DNA of 46,055 nucleotides, taken from Bacillota bacterium. Its GTDB lineage: Bacteria > Bacillota > Clostridia > UBA1381. The notes below the pieces were generated by a model. The model was not told the DNA's origin, did no database searches, and worked only from the letters and a program-made list of their open reading frames with translations. The translations under genes and the position numbers were made by a program. Numbering within the stretch: position 1 is the stretch's first letter; every line of letters begins with the position of its first letter. Shown piece by piece: positions 32,735-39,368 of the stretch. The DNA is taken from assembly GCA_024685565.1 (NCBI GenBank), contig JAIKVQ010000155.1, positions 1-46,055 on the forward strand. The letters run 5' to 3'.

Positions 32735-33322
32735 CTATTTTTTTATCTTTAGAAGTCTTACGATAATAGGAGTGAAAAAGATATTTATACCCATCTCAAC
32801 CAAAAAGTTTACGCCGACAAAGGCAATTATTATAAATTGTCCAATGCTGCCTTCCCAGCCCGCCGACTGTGCGATTTGTGACACTGTATCCATAAAAAAC
32901 ACCAAACATCCAATCAGGAAAATCCCCGTATTTACAACAGGGCAGACAACAGCAGCAGCTATAACCGCTAAGTATTCATTTGAAACTTTTCTTACAGCAT
33001 TATACACAATTCCTGCTGCCAAACCACAGCCAATACCTTTTAGAAGTACCGTTATGATTGTACCAGGAACGTTGACAGCTAAGAATATTGCCGCATCTCC
33101 GCTTGCAAGCACAGCGACTCCGAAAACAAATCCAAGCCATGCCGCCACCCATGAACCGCAGGTTGCCGCTCCGATAACTATCGGAATAAGTACTGTCGAT
33201 ATTGAAAATGTTCCGAACTTAATCACACAGCCGAAATATTGCAGAACAAAAACTATCGCTGTAAGTATTGATGCAAGTGTAAGCTCTTTTGTTGTCATTT
33301 TTGTTGTCATTTTTGTTGTCAT
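32735..33322 (-). CDS. ECF transporter S component-like membrane protein
   Basis: Six-TM-type protein, LTLASILTAIVFVLQYFGCVIKFGTFSISTVLIPIVIGAATCG...; near ecfA1A2T. Confidence 0.6.
   Translation of the reverse strand: MTTKMTTKMTTKELTLASILTAIVFVLQYFGCVIKFGTFSISTVLIPIVIGAATCGSWVAAWLGFVFGVAVLASGDAAIFLAVNVPGTIITVLLKGIGCGLAAGIVYNAVRKVSNEYLAVIAAAVVCPVVNTGIFLIGCLVFFMDTVSQIAQSAGWEGSIGQFIIIAFVGVNFLVEMGINIFFTPIIVRLLKIKK
33287..33322. repeat. Three perfect tandem 12 bp repeats each containing an in-frame ATG
   Basis: Plus strand (TTTTGTTGTCAT)x3 = minus strand (ATGACAACAAAA)x3, encoding MTTKMTTKMTTK at the N-terminus. Confidence 0.97.
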
Positions 33323-33358
33323 TTTAATCTCTCTCCTCTAAAAATTATAGACAGACGT

Positions 33359-33489: not shown

Positions 33490-34371
33490 ATGCGTGAATT
33501 TATACTGACCGTCCCCGAAAATCTTGCAGGACGTGACATAAAATACATACTGAAAAACCATTTTGAATTTTCATCATCTTTAATTACTGCACTCAAAGAG
33601 GGTGACGGTATAATGCTTTGCGGAAAAAAAGAGTTTGTGAACAAAAAAGTTGCTTTGGGCGATATTTTAAAAATTACCCTTTTTGATAAGGCATCGGAAA
33701 ATATAACCCCTCAAAATATACCACTCGACATTTTATATGATGACGAGGACTTGCTTGCAGTAAACAAACCTCCGAAAACGCCAACACATCCCAGCATTTA
33801 CCATACAAAGGACACAGTCGCAAACGCTGTTTTATACTATTTCAAGGGCACTCCCTTTACTTTTCGTGCACCGTCACGGCTTGACCGTGACACCTCAGGT
33901 GTTTTAATTGTGGCAAAGAATGCCTGGTGCGCCGAGCGAATTTCACGGGCAATAAAAAATGGTGAATTTAAAAAGGAATATATGGCCGTATGTGTTGGCA
34001 CTCCAAAAGATATGCGCGGTACAATTTCCGCTCCGATAAAGCGTGAAAAGCAAGGAATTATAAAAAGGGTTATTTCCCCCGACGGAAAAAATGCAGTTAC
34101 TGATTATGAAGTCATTAAAACTCTCGGAAACCTTAGTCTTTTAAAATTATGCCCAAAAACAGGCAGAACGCATCAGATACGTCTGCACCTGTCACATATC
34201 GGAACACCGATTTATGGGGATTTTCTATATGGAGAAGAGGTTTTGGGAGAAAGGATACGCCTGCATTGTAAAAGCGTCAGTTTTGCTCATCCGCTAACTA
34301 AAAAACCAATCACAATAACCGCCCCTCTGCCCCATGATATGAGACTTGAAGAAATATACAAAAAATTATAG
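33490..34371 (+). CDS. RluA-family pseudouridine synthase
   Basis: APSRLDRDTSGVLIVAKN (RLDxxTSG), CPKTGRTHQIRLHLSHIGTPIYGD. Confidence 0.93.
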   Translation: MREFILTVPENLAGRDIKYILKNHFEFSSSLITALKEGDGIMLCGKKEFVNKKVALGDILKITLFDKASENITPQNIPLDILYDDEDLLAVNKPPKTPTHPSIYHTKDTVANAVLYYFKGTPFTFRAPSRLDRDTSGVLIVAKNAWCAERISRAIKNGEFKKEYMAVCVGTPKDMRGTISAPIKREKQGIIKRVISPDGKNAVTDYEVIKTLGNLSLLKLCPKTGRTHQIRLHLSHIGTPIYGDFLYGEEVLGERIRLHCKSVSFAHPLTKKPITITAPLPHDMRLEEIYKKL

Positions 34372-35511
34372 GATTTTAAATTCTTCTTCAATTTTTTTGC
34401 GTGCAGTATAAAAATGACCTTCTGCGGTATCGCCTCTGCCGCCGCCTTTTCCCGAAAGTGCGGCATTTAACTTATTGACGCTCTCCGAAACACCGTTATT
34501 TGCGGTTATTATATAGGAATATCCGTTTTCATCATCGCCTGAGAGTAGTGCAAATACTCCCCCTACGCGTTTTTTTGCCTCATTTACTATCATTCTTTGG
34601 ACATTTCTATCGCATACAGCAGAAAAAACAATAAAATTCTCCTCGGTTTTGGGTATGCTTTTAATCTCGTAAAGCGCAAGCTCGTTCAAAAGCTGTGCGT
34701 TTTTTCTTTTTTGGTCTGAAATCTGTTCCGAAAGCTTTAAAACTGCTCCAAAGACCTCATTCTGAGGTGCAGAAAGCATTCTCGAAATTTGGGCTACACT
34801 TTTTTGCTTTTGGCAGTAATCCAAAAGCGCATCCTTTCCGCAAATCATTCTTATTCTGACTCCGCCCCTGTGACGCATCATATCGGTAAATTTGATAATG
34901 CCTATTTCTCCTGTATGTTTTACGTGCGGCGCACAGCAAGCACAAACATCAACGCCGGGGATTGTCACAATCCTTATTCTTCCCAAAATCTCTTTTTTAC
35001 TTCGGTAATTTATATTTTCAAGTTCGTCCGCTTTTGGATAGCTTGCCGATATTTCAAGATTTTTATAAACAACCTCATTTGCAAGGTTTTCAAGCTCGCA
35101 AAGCTGCTCTTCGGTAATTTCCGCTCCGTAGTCTATTGTTACATCATCTTTTCCCAAGTGAAATCCTGTGTTTACAAGACTGAACCGCGAAAAGGCAAGT
35201 CCCGACACTATATGTTCGGCACTGTGATGCTGCATCTTCCGAAATCTTTCCTCAAAATGAAGCTTGCCTGTTACAGTTTTGCCTTCTTCAATGGGATTTT
35301 TTACAAGGTGATATATTTCATCATTCTCGCAAATGACCGACAAAACCTCTTCATTGTCAATCGTTCCGCTGTCGCATTCCTGACCGCCTGCCGTTGGAAA
35401 AAATGCCGTTTGGCTAAGCGTAACAAGGTATCCGTCATCTGCTTTAGTACACCTTTCTACCCTTGCCGAAAATTCACTTATATAGCTGTCCTCATAAAAT
35501 AATTTTATCAT
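34366..35511 (-). CDS. Alanyl-tRNA editing protein AlaX with DHHA1-like C-terminal domain
   Basis: FPTAGGQECDSG, MQHHSAEHIVSGL, CACCAPHVKHTGEIGIIK zinc motif, C-terminal LSGKGGGRGDTAEGH. Confidence 0.9.
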   Translation of the reverse strand: MIKLFYEDSYISEFSARVERCTKADDGYLVTLSQTAFFPTAGGQECDSGTIDNEEVLSVICENDEIYHLVKNPIEEGKTVTGKLHFEERFRKMQHHSAEHIVSGLAFSRFSLVNTGFHLGKDDVTIDYGAEITEEQLCELENLANEVVYKNLEISASYPKADELENINYRSKKEILGRIRIVTIPGVDVCACCAPHVKHTGEIGIIKFTDMMRHRGGVRIRMICGKDALLDYCQKQKSVAQISRMLSAPQNEVFGAVLKLSEQISDQKRKNAQLLNELALYEIKSIPKTEENFIVFSAVCDRNVQRMIVNEAKKRVGGVFALLSGDDENGYSYIITANNGVSESVNKLNAALSGKGGGRGDTAEGHFYTARKKIEEEFKIL

Positions 35512-35512
35512 A

Positions 35513-36880
35513 TCAGAGTCCTTTTACTGCCTTATCTACCTGTATCATTATGGCACATTCCATACGCTTTTTAAACAGCTCACAGCCGTATTCGTAAATC
35601 TTTCCTATATCGCCTGCCGCGTGATATGCGTTTGCAGCGCAGCCTCCCGAACAATAAAGCTTTGCCCAGCAATTTTTACATTCTTCTCTTGAATATGCAT
35701 TACATTTCCTGAATTTTTCGCGTAGGCTTGTGTTTGTGACACCGTCCCAGATGTCGCCCATACTGTAGCTTTCATCACCAACAAACTGATGACATGGGTA
35801 AAGTTCGCCCCATGGTGTGACTGCCATATATTCTGTCCCGGAGCCGCAACCGGAAATGCGTTTATATATACAAGGACCGTTTTCCAGGTCTATCATATAG
35901 TGGTAGAATGTAAATCCCCTGCCCTCACGGTTGCGTTTTATCATCTCATCTGCAAGAATTTCATACTGACGGAAAAGAGTCGGCAAATCCTCTTTTGTCA
36001 GGGCACATTCATCATCGGGCGCACAAACGACAGGCTCCATACTAAGTTCTTTAAATCCCAAATCCGCCATATGCAGAATATCATTTGTAAAATCGGTGTT
36101 TTTATGTGTATATGTTCCGCGTATGTAGTAGCTCTTATCACCGCGCTTTTTCACAAAATCCAAAAATTTCGGCACAATCACATCATAGCTTCCGCGGCCT
36201 AAATAATCCTTTCTAAAACGATCGTGTACCTCTCGTCTTCCGTCAAGGCTCAAAACAACATTGTTCATCTCCCTGTTGCAAAAGTCGGTTACCTCATCAT
36301 CAAGCAAAATACCGTTTGTAGTAAGCGTAAAACGGAAATTCTTTCCGTTTTCCTTTTCCTTACTTCTTGCGTATTTCACTATTTCCTTTACGACCTCAAA
36401 ATTCATAAGCGGTTCTCCGCCGAAAAAGTCAACCTCTAAATTCTTTCGGTCTCCCGAATTTTCTATAAGAAAATCTATGGCGCGCTTGCCCGTCTCAAGG
36501 CTCATAATCGCACGGTCGCCCTTATATTTCCCCTGACCTGCAAAACAATAACTGCAGTTTAGATTACAGGTATGTGCGACGTGCAGACAAAGTGCCTTTA
36601 TAACATTGTTTTTCCCCTTTAAAACATCTGCTTTATCAGCGTAAATGTCCTCACAGAAAAGCTGTTTTTGTTCCTTTAGTTTCTCTATGTCAGAAAGGCA
36701 CAAAAGGACATCATTTTCAGTTATTCCGTATTTTTTAGTGATTTCCTTTAATATTTCATCTTTTTCATTTGTTTCGTACATTCCGATAATGTCATATGCA
36801 ACGTCGTCTACCGAATGTACCGAACCGCTGAATGCATCTATTACAATGTTGTATCCGTTTTGCTTATACTGATGTATCAT
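35513..36880 (-). CDS. scfB: SCIFF-type radical SAM/SPASM thioether maturase
   Basis: RRE-like N-terminus (MIHQYKQNGYNIVIDAFSGSVHSVDDVAYDII), CNLNCSYCFAGQG (CxxxCxxC), GGEPLMNF, SPASM Cys cluster (ECKNCWAKLYCSGGCAANAY...CELFKKRMEC); adjacent SCIFF precursor. Confidence 0.93.
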   Translation of the reverse strand: MIHQYKQNGYNIVIDAFSGSVHSVDDVAYDIIGMYETNEKDEILKEITKKYGITENDVLLCLSDIEKLKEQKQLFCEDIYADKADVLKGKNNVIKALCLHVAHTCNLNCSYCFAGQGKYKGDRAIMSLETGKRAIDFLIENSGDRKNLEVDFFGGEPLMNFEVVKEIVKYARSKEKENGKNFRFTLTTNGILLDDEVTDFCNREMNNVVLSLDGRREVHDRFRKDYLGRGSYDVIVPKFLDFVKKRGDKSYYIRGTYTHKNTDFTNDILHMADLGFKELSMEPVVCAPDDECALTKEDLPTLFRQYEILADEMIKRNREGRGFTFYHYMIDLENGPCIYKRISGCGSGTEYMAVTPWGELYPCHQFVGDESYSMGDIWDGVTNTSLREKFRKCNAYSREECKNCWAKLYCSGGCAANAYHAAGDIGKIYEYGCELFKKRMECAIMIQVDKAVKGL

Positions 36881-36895
36881 CTAAAATCCCTTTCT

Positions 36896-36921
36896 AAAAA
36901 ATAACGGCTGAATTTCAGCCG
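36896..36921 (-). terminator. Intrinsic terminator/attenuator between SCIFF precursor and maturase genes
   Basis: Minus strand CGGCTGAA-A-TTCAGCCG followed by TTATTTTTT, between the scfA stop (36941) and scfB start (36880). Confidence 0.75.
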
Positions 36922-36940: not shown

Positions 36941-37201
36941 TTATCTTTCGCAGGGCTGATTTGCAACTCCGCATGATGTCTTGCAAGCTGACTGGCATGA
37001 TGTCTGGCACTCGCCGCAGCCACCCTCACAGTTTGTCAAATTTCTTGTTGTAAGCGTTACAATCCTTGAACTGTTTTCACAAGGCTGATTTGCAACCCCG
37101 CACGATGTCTTGCAGGCTGACTGGCATGATGTCTGACACTCGCCGCATCCGCCCTCACAGTTTGTCAAATTCCTTGTTATAAGTGTTTTAATTCTGTTCA
37201 T
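36941..37201 (-). CDS. scfA: SCIFF-family ribosomal peptide precursor, tandemly duplicated (two 43-aa units, 14 Cys)
   Basis: MNRIKTLITRNLTNCEGGCGECQTSCQSACKTSCGVANQPCENSSRIVTLTTRNLTNCEGGCGECQTSCQSACKTSCGVANQPCER; AAGGAG RBS; next to maturase. Confidence 0.93.
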   Translation of the reverse strand: MNRIKTLITRNLTNCEGGCGECQTSCQSACKTSCGVANQPCENSSRIVTLTTRNLTNCEGGCGECQTSCQSACKTSCGVANQPCER

Positions 37202-37237: not shown

Positions 37238-37266
37238 ATTATATAGTTTTTTCATCTTCTTGTCAA
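37238..37266 (-). promoter_or_regulatory. Consensus sigma-A promoter for the SCIFF precursor
   Basis: Minus strand TTGACA (37266-37261) - 17 bp - TATAAT (37243-37238). Confidence 0.85.
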
Positions 37267-37275
37267 GCAATTTTG

Positions 37276-38649
37276 CTATTTAATGACAAGTATTTCATTA
37301 TCCTTTATATTTCCGCCAAGCTCTATCCCGTTTTCTTTATACTCGTGTAATTTTTCAAGGACTTTACGTGAAATCATTTCGCCGGGTACAATCACAGGCA
37401 CTCCCGGCGGATACGCCCATACATATCCCGCAGAAATTCTGCCCTCTGCCTCCTCCGTTTTGCAAAAAATATTGTCACTTTTTAATGCTTTCCTGAAAGA
37501 TGTTGCACCGTTTTTCCCACACCACGCAAAATTGCGCGGTTTTATACTGACTTTTTCTATTTTATCCGCCTTGCAAAGCGCATTTGCAAGCCTTGTAAGG
37601 CTCTTCTTTGTATCCCCCGCGCCTGTCATACAGATAACATAACCGGAAGCAGTCATTTCAGGCTCGATATTTTCACTCCTCAGCATTTTTGCAAGCTCGG
37701 CTCCGCTTTGATTTTTCGGAAAAATTACAATTTTACTCCTGTCAAAACCGAAAAAACCACTTTCTCCTTTCAACACTTCAATATTTTTAAGCGGCTTTAC
37801 CTTGTCATAAAAAAAGTCAAGACTTTTGTTCCAATTCTTAAAAATATCATCGTTTTCATTTACCGTCTTTATACAGCCGTCTATTGAAGAAAGCAATATA
37901 TATGACGGGCTGCTGGTTTCAAAAACAGAAAGTTTTTCCGAAACCTTATCTTTTTTGACAAGATTTCCCGAAACATAGCAAACCGCTGTCTGCGTAAGAC
38001 TTGGGAGTGTTTTGTGCAGACTTTCTACGCATATGTCTGCGCCAAGGCTCACCGCACTTTCGCAAAATCCGCAAAATCCCAAATGCGCTCCGTGTGCTGC
38101 ATCTACCAAAACAGGGATATTCCTTTTATGCGCCTCCCTGCATATCCCCTCAATATCGCTTATGACTCCCTCATATGTGGGGCTTGTAACTATAACAAGC
38201 TTTGCGTCAGGATTTTCTTCAATTTTTGAGGCAACATCGCAAGGATTTACCGAGCGTGAAATCCCGTACCTATCGCTTATTTCGGGATATACAAAAACTG
38301 GTTCTGCACCTGCAAGCTCAATCCCGTTATAAACCGATTTATGGCAGTTGCGAGCCACTATTACTTTATCATTCTCTTTTAAAACAGCACAAACAGCCGC
38401 AAGTATTCCGCAAGTCGTACCGTTTACAAGGTAGAATGCGGCATCTGCTCCCCGATACTTTGCCGCATTTCCCATTGAATTTTTGAGTATACCTGAGGCA
38501 TTATGCAGATTATCAAACCCGTCGATTTCAGTTATGTCAATATCCGCAAAATCCTTAAGATAAGGGAATTTCTTCCCGTTTCGCTTATGCCCCGGCATAT
38601 GCATAGGAATTTTATTTATTCTTTTCAGCTTTTCAAGTAATGTTTCCAT
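37276..38649 (-). CDS. Orn/Lys/Arg decarboxylase-family PLP enzyme (start corrected to METLLEKLKRINKIPMHMPGHKRN)
   Basis: MHMPGHKRNGKKF, FLVNGTTCGILAA, VDAAHGAHLGF, ESLHKTLPSLTQTA; C-terminal YPPGVPVIVPGE. Confidence 0.9.
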   Translation of the reverse strand: METLLEKLKRINKIPMHMPGHKRNGKKFPYLKDFADIDITEIDGFDNLHNASGILKNSMGNAAKYRGADAAFYLVNGTTCGILAAVCAVLKENDKVIVARNCHKSVYNGIELAGAEPVFVYPEISDRYGISRSVNPCDVASKIEENPDAKLVIVTSPTYEGVISDIEGICREAHKRNIPVLVDAAHGAHLGFCGFCESAVSLGADICVESLHKTLPSLTQTAVCYVSGNLVKKDKVSEKLSVFETSSPSYILLSSIDGCIKTVNENDDIFKNWNKSLDFFYDKVKPLKNIEVLKGESGFFGFDRSKIVIFPKNQSGAELAKMLRSENIEPEMTASGYVICMTGAGDTKKSLTRLANALCKADKIEKVSIKPRNFAWCGKNGATSFRKALKSDNIFCKTEEAEGRISAGYVWAYPPGVPVIVPGEMISRKVLEKLHEYKENGIELGGNIKDNEILVIK

Positions 38650-38666
38650 ATTACCCCGTCCTATTA

Positions 38667-38690
38667 AAAAAACCGCCGTCCTCGGGCGGA
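38667..38690 (-). terminator. Intrinsic terminator downstream of mgtC
   Basis: Minus strand CCGCC-CGAGGAC-GGCGG followed by TTTTTT. Confidence 0.65.
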
Positions 38691-38693
38691 ATT

Positions 38694-39368
38694 TTATATT
38701 GAAAAGTAATGAACGCACTCTGTTCCTCTAAACGCATCAAGAAGGTTGTTGTAATCTATATCGGCATCAATCGATATGTCCATCTCAACCTCGATGAGTC
38801 CCGCTTCCTTTTTTCTGCACTTCATGCCGCCCACGGCTATATTATATTCTGCAAGCATATTATTAAGAAAGTCCATCGCCTCTTGGCTGTCGTCTATTGT
38901 CACTGACAGAATTTCCTCACTTGGCATATGCAGAAATTTATAGTTTTTATGTAAAAATATCTGGCATAAAACAATGATGAGTGTCGAAAATATTCCCACA
39001 AGATAAAGTCCCGAACCTACAGCAAGGCCTACGCCTGCAGTTGCCCATACTCCTGCTGCGGTTGTTAATCCCTTTACCAGATGGCGGTTAAAATAAATCA
39101 TTCCCGCACCCAAAAAACCGACTCCGCTTACAACCTGCGCTGCAATTCTCGCAGGATCTGCACTGTGCAGTCCCGGGAAGTTCTCCAAATCAGCAAATCC
39201 GTATTTTGAAACTATCATCATCAATGCCGACGCAAGCGCAACAATAGTGTGCGTTCTTATTCCTGCACCCTTACCTCTATTTTTCCTCTCATAGCCTATA
39301 ACTGCACCGCATGCGCAAGCAAGTAAAATTCTTAGAAAAAATATCAGCTGTAACATTACAAGCCTCAT
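38694..39368 (-). CDS. MgtC/SapB-family membrane protein
   Basis: GAVIGYERKNRGKGAGIRTHTIVALASALMM, VVSGVGFLGAGMIYF, VKGLTTAAGVWATAGVGLAVG. Confidence 0.9.
   Translation of the reverse strand: MRLVMLQLIFFLRILLACACGAVIGYERKNRGKGAGIRTHTIVALASALMMIVSKYGFADLENFPGLHSADPARIAAQVVSGVGFLGAGMIYFNRHLVKGLTTAAGVWATAGVGLAVGSGLYLVGIFSTLIIVLCQIFLHKNYKFLHMPSEEILSVTIDDSQEAMDFLNNMLAEYNIAVGGMKCRKKEAGLIEVEMDISIDADIDYNNLLDAFRGTECVHYFSI

Follow-up and report, generated by a model that had tools for sequence, protein, structure and literature searches.

The window, by which we mean the whole stretch of 46,055 nucleotides analysed here, carries on its reverse strand a SCIFF locus whose features are collected in Table 1. 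The precursor gene, scfA, is a single ORF that begins with ATG, has a ribosome-binding site (AAGGAG) 8 nt upstream of its start, and encodes the protein MNRIKTLITRNLTNCEGGCGECQTSCQSACKTSCGVANQPCENSSRIVTLTTRNLTNCEGGCGECQTSCQSACKTSCGVANQPCER, that is, two in-frame SCIFF units of 43 residues each; the second unit, which lacks a Met, is made within the same chain as the first. At the DNA level the arrangement appears as a direct repeat of 121 nt, 88% identical, with a spacing of 129 nt. The profiles TIGR03973 (NCBIfam; 124.4 bits in total, cut-off 50, E = 1.1e-36) and PF13165 (Pfam; 126.3 bits, cut-off 27) both match the protein in two stretches. The leader is repeated (RIKTLITRNLTN / RIVTLTTRNLTN), and in each unit the cysteines follow the pattern C-x3-C-x2-C-x3-C-x3-C-x3-C-x6-C (7+7 = 14 in all), six of them belonging to the core and one to the leader, such that every unit contains the six cysteines within about 45 residues expected of a SCIFF. 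An earlier note, made from the DNA alone, had described the two units, their cysteine pattern and the leader-like repeat, and in these respects it was exactly right.

The maturase gene, scfB, starts 60 nt downstream of scfA. Its product scores 756 bits against TIGR03974 (cut-off 425), also matches PF04055 and PF13186, and aligns with CteB (PDB 5wgg; 1e-167) over positions 1-448, the RRE region included, with the cysteines of the radical SAM (CX3CX2C) and SPASM motifs in register. The identification as a SCIFF precursor beside its maturase, also proposed in the earlier note, is thus upheld; no solved structure of the scfA precursor was found among PDB sequences. SCIFF peptides are nearly universal in Clostridia and usually consist of a single unit. 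The typical layout of one unit of about 45 residues, which is no formal requirement, is not that of the 86-residue protein encoded here. Judged by profile, core and adjacent maturase, scfA is a member of the SCIFF family that departs from it in the number of units and in the residue equivalent to Thr37.

Table 1. Features of the SCIFF locus in the window. Ratios are amino-acid/synonymous codon difference ratios within the window's genus.
Feature	Coordinates	Strand	Basis or remark
AlaX-like alanyl-tRNA editing protein, directly downstream of scfB	34366..35511	-	PF07973; context only
scfB, SCIFF maturase, 455 aa, RRE + radical SAM (CNLNCSYC) + SPASM	35513..36880	-	TIGR03974; CteB/5wgg alignment
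Hairpin + T-run between scfA and scfB, possible partial terminator	36905..36921	-	inference
scfA, two-unit SCIFF precursor, 86 aa	36941..37201	-	two TIGR03973/PF13165 stretches in one ORF
Core 2 (C62-C84)	36950..37018	-	Thr34-equivalent T75, Thr37-equivalent Gly78; ratio 0.00
Leader 2 (R46-G61, RIVTLTTRNLTNCEGG)	37019..37066	-	without own start codon; ratio 0.31
Linker ENSS, 4 residues	37067..37078	-	fast-evolving; ratio 2.08
Core 1 (C19-C41, CGECQTSCQSACKTSCGVANQPC)	37079..37147	-	Thr34-equivalent T32, Thr37-equivalent Gly35; ratio 0.02
Leader 1 (M1-G18, RIKTLITRNLTNCEGG)	37148..37201	-	sequence; motif RIxTLxTRxL; ratio 0.58
Sigma-70-type promoter TTGACA-N17-TATAAT, perfect	37238..37266	-	ends 36 nt upstream of scfA
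Orn/Lys/Arg decarboxylase-family gene, syntenic upstream neighbour	37276..38718	-	PF01276, 187 bits

An artefact in the second unit is conceivable, since nearly all of the doublets described below stem from metagenome-assembled genomes, and an assembly artefact was among the findings that the earlier note had named as fatal to its claim. The two 25-codon core segments of scfA differ at 8 codons, all of them synonymously, and the doublet recurs at the same 129-nt spacing in 8 of the 9 species-level genomes of the window's genus (scfA and scfB are both missing from the ninth, which is 97% complete); for these reasons the doublet is not an assembly copy. Synonymous differences between the units are found in nearly all genomes, the doublets come from independent assemblies representing several hosts and studies, and some lie on long contigs, for example one of 508 kb (L079), so that we consider an assembly or binning artefact virtually impossible.

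Outside the genus, each of the 75 other genomes of the family and order that gave a match contains exactly one full unit; extra rows in G069 and G147 are sub-threshold fragments, the second row of G069 having an internal stop. A sample of 391 genomes of the class yielded two more doublets (G098 and G250). A tandem-motif search had been suggested in the earlier note, and when 84,980 species genomes were scanned with a DNA pattern describing two SCIFF cores in succession behind a single ATG, the residue that follows the fifth core Cys being left free, 29 further two-unit loci came up, although divergent doublets may be missed by a pattern that needs an ATG start and exact core spacing. With the window there are therefore 30 doublet genomes, nearly all of the scanned ones being MAGs and many coming from ruminant-gut Clostridia. 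Each of the 29 loci is one in-frame ORF holding two units and no more (one of them is cut by a contig end), and no three-unit SCIFF was seen among the doublet loci of the scan. No description of a doublet or tandem-core SCIFF came up in the open literature that was searched; the variant singled out by the earlier note as the strongest candidate for an undescribed one may still be called that, but it is not unique to this genome. One doublet (L078, in genome G250) resembles those of the window's genus, while three other searched members of its own genus have neither SCIFF nor ScfB; its presence may be due to horizontal transfer or to misbinning of the contig (6% contamination).

What the earlier note missed, besides this wide phylogenetic spread of the doubling, is the Gly at the Thr37 position and the maturase clade that matches it. 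For the same SCIFF peptide the cross-link has been placed between Cys32 and Thr37 in vitro and between Cys32 and Thr34 in E. coli (PMC8326336, PMC8172795): the thioether donor is Cys32, the fourth Cys of the precursor, and the acceptor is Thr37 according to Bruender 2016 and Grove 2017 (PMC8326336, PMC8172795), or Thr34 according to Hudson 2019 (summarised in PMC8326336, PMC8172795). Counting from the donor Cys, Thr34 is position +2 and Thr37 position +5. Both units of the window's scfA have the Cys32 equivalent and a Thr at +2, with Gly at +5. The same Gly is present in every readable unit (59/59) of the 30 doublets, and the 122 sampled singles have Thr (81) or Gly (41) at this position, 41/122 not being a frequency, as the singles were partly picked for Gly. 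Thr34 is kept in all 181 units sampled. In the even sample of the class a Gly37 core occurs in 69 genomes versus 322 with any SCIFF (approximately a fifth), and 65 of the 69 are single-unit; the Thr37Gly replacement is thus neither unique to doublets nor a product of doubling. On these counts Gly37 is a widespread SCIFF subtype, inside which alone doublets are found. Since Thr37 is replaced by Gly, the link in the Gly type most likely runs from the Cys of CKTSC to Thr34. The natural loss of Thr37 in about a fifth of SCIFF genomes and in all doublets, with Thr34 never missing, argues for Thr34, and the Gly37 precursors are ready-made substrates with which the Thr34/Thr37 dispute becomes testable.

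The maturases divide in the same way. A tree of 108 ScfB proteins gathers the Gly37 systems in a single clade (support 100; one change over the tree) that includes no Thr37 system, and clade membership matches precursor residue 37 exactly (loci L018-L177). At position 328 (CteB numbering) all Gly-type rows have Tyr and all 45 Thr-type rows Phe (F328Y); other near-fixed differences between the types are F330Y, D106T and E438F, of which D106T adjoins the CX3CX2C motif, with Thr in 90% of the Gly clade. None of the ScfB alignment columns separates doublet from single Gly-type maturases, and we have accordingly rejected the notion of doublet-specific maturase residues. A bolder reading, which we consider unlikely, is that SCIFF comprises two systems of different chemistry, one with Thr37 and one with Gly37 whose ScfB active site has co-evolved; the Gly37 cross-links would then differ (either Cys32-Thr34 alone or an alpha-carbon bond to Gly37), and a two-headed precursor, active as a joined double product, would exist only in the Gly37 type.

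With respect to origins, the window's genus belongs to the Gly clade, the other members of its family being Thr-type. The decarboxylase gene stands ahead of scfA in the majority of main-clade doublets and in some Gly-type singles, and in none of the family's Thr-type singles that were examined. Because a Gly-type genus sits inside a Thr-type family whose examined singles have no decarboxylase gene at this place, the decarboxylase-scfA-scfB block appears to have been gained horizontally by the window's genus, as the simplest reading. It can also be noted that the decarboxylase gene travels with scfAB (window; L057-L097), as a possible functional or transfer unit. A single origin of the doublets is rejected by the AU test on ScfB trees (p 9.4e-5): doublets arose at least twice, the number being unsure, as a quick tree suggests three changes and a careful one two. 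The clearest independent origin is that of L064 and L073, which are nested among LC-type singles and have a different neighbourhood. The doubling of the SCIFF gene is old.

The seventh cysteine of each unit, on which the earlier note had laid weight, does not hold up as the key novelty. An extra Cys is present in 22 of 56 tabulated doublet units and in 15 of 42 Gly-type singles, and is therefore neither shared by all doublets nor restricted to them: it is missing from most doublets outside the window's genus, and many Gly-type singles have it. In the NCEGGC form it is confined to the window's genus and L078; in other Gly-type SCIFFs the leader Cys is often elsewhere (LCESA, LCDSA).

The promoter upstream of scfA matches the consensus perfectly, as it does (score 12/12) upstream of 20 of the 30 doublets. 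A best upstream score of at least 11/12 is reached by 24/30 doublets, 20/40 Gly singles, 3/82 Thr singles and 10/600 random windows, where the scores represent consensus matches only and the scored rows are related by descent and thus phylogenetically non-independent. The score climbs from Thr singles to Gly singles to doublets; two doublets (L067 and L070) have a weak promoter (9/12). A hairpin with a T-run is found in 13 of the 30 doublets, the window included, and, as a putative partial terminator between scfA and scfB, could provide for more precursor than enzyme. Among the other neighbours, the AlaX-like gene has the same position in L058 and L063. Elsewhere in the window (33287-33325) there is a perfect 12-nt repeat in 3.2 copies that encodes MTTKMTTKMTTK at the start of a 195-residue membrane-like ORF, whose N-terminus is possibly phase-variable or mis-started.

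Within the window's genus, 17% of codons show synonymous differences between the two units of one gene, versus 47-51% when the same unit is compared between species, and orthologous and paralogous comparisons of units give equal distances; on this evidence the two units undergo concerted evolution there. The ratios of amino-acid to synonymous codon differences (Table 1), which are raw pairwise counts uncorrected for relatedness, are lowest in the two cores and highest in the linker. In these terms leader 2 is under no weaker constraint than leader 1, which is what a role in docking would predict. The motif RIxTLxTRxL is present, with few substitutions, in both units of 30/30 doublets. Its residue x in RIxTL (K/T/N/Q in unit 1, V/K/R in unit 2) differs between the units in 29 of the 30 genes, and stays unit-specific even though homogenisation has made the units alike elsewhere.

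These observations can be interpreted in terms of what is known of CteB, whose RRE holds the bound leader as a beta-strand (PMC6231123, PMC8326336). The reading that we favour, and regard as fairly probable, is that the gene specifies a stable two-unit precursor on which one maturase docks twice, once per leader, with a higher yield of core per translation. One mRNA, usually from a near-consensus promoter, would be translated into one chain with two leader+core units and a short linker; ScfB, which has one RRE, would dock on each leader in turn and form in each core the customary thioether from Cys to Thr, with Thr34 the most likely acceptor; doubling would provide more modified core per translation event, and recombination between the repeats would keep the units alike. 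Conservation of leader 2 next to a drifting linker supports the use of each leader for docking, and hence the suggestion in the earlier note that one maturase may act twice; its other suggestion, cleavage into two products, is compatible with the GG that precedes 175 of 182 cores.

Dosage as the reason for the doubling is challenged by two observations: a pure dosage gain should sometimes yield three or more units, yet there are exactly two in 30/30 doublets, and the difference at x in RIxTL suggests that the units are not strictly interchangeable. Both fit the main rival, in which the cores stay joined and the active product is a bivalent (two-headed) ranthipeptide, copy number two being a question of geometry and not of yield. 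The shortness of the linker agrees with such a product, as does the finding of no dedicated protease beside scfA or scfB; a C39 peptidase is above cut-off in only 4 of the 9 genomes of the genus, which are incomplete, and a dedicated C39 protease/transporter was rejected for this inconsistency. Nevertheless, the linker drifts freely in sequence and length, the GG ahead of most cores would permit cleavage, and a fused product would have no obvious need of a conserved leader 2 except for docking, so that a joined product seems to us possible but rather improbable. Direct repeats of 129 bp also recombine easily, and homogenised units are what would be expected had the doubling been a neutral repeat expansion, by slippage or unequal crossing-over, that was then fixed by drift. 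The recombination that homogenises the units would, however, also delete one of them, and yet both persist, in each of the 8 species of the genus that have a SCIFF and over wide divergence, with purifying selection on both cores and on leader 2; we therefore give neutral expansion only a slight chance. Double docking on a two-unit precursor is the reading that we retain.

All ScfA peptides have been assumed to be functionally equivalent (PMC5300114), an assumption that the Gly37/Thr37 split calls into question. The SCIFF product, the position of its cross-link and its role are disputed; a bacterial RiPP precursor of the form leader-core-leader-core is also useful for asking how a radical SAM maturase handles two substrates per chain. 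Compared with the classical ScfA (TIGR03973/PF13165; Tte1186a; CteA/thermocellin), the window's scfA shares the layout leader-GG-CGECQTSCQSACKTSC core, the adjacent ScfB and the equivalents of Thr34 and Cys32, but has two units per chain, Gly for Thr37 in both, a leader of the TRxL type and, in the window's genus, an extra leader Cys. Its ScfB has the same length, domain order and radical SAM and SPASM cysteines as CteB (TIGR03974, PDB 5wgg/5why), and differs in belonging to the Gly-type clade with its near-fixed changes, nothing being tied to the doublet itself. Several cores in one precursor are called rare in RiPP biosynthesis in a study of a microviridin precursor (PMC5934393). Such precursors likewise carry several cores per polypeptide, presumably served by one enzyme, but scfA repeats the leader with each core, has exactly two units and is paired with a radical SAM thioether synthase; since the leader motif is in both units of every doublet, the single-leader multi-core arrangement does not describe it. 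Finally, ranthipeptides are defined by a non-alpha-carbon thioether in the product. One of them, freyrasin/PapA, is Cys-rich and receives six thioethers from a SPASM enzyme (PMC8172795). It resembles scfA in its richness in Cys and in having a related SPASM enzyme, although the window's maturase scores 284 bits against the PapB profile, below the cut-off of 340; PapA repeats Cys-x3-Asp motifs inside one core, whereas scfA duplicates the whole leader+core.
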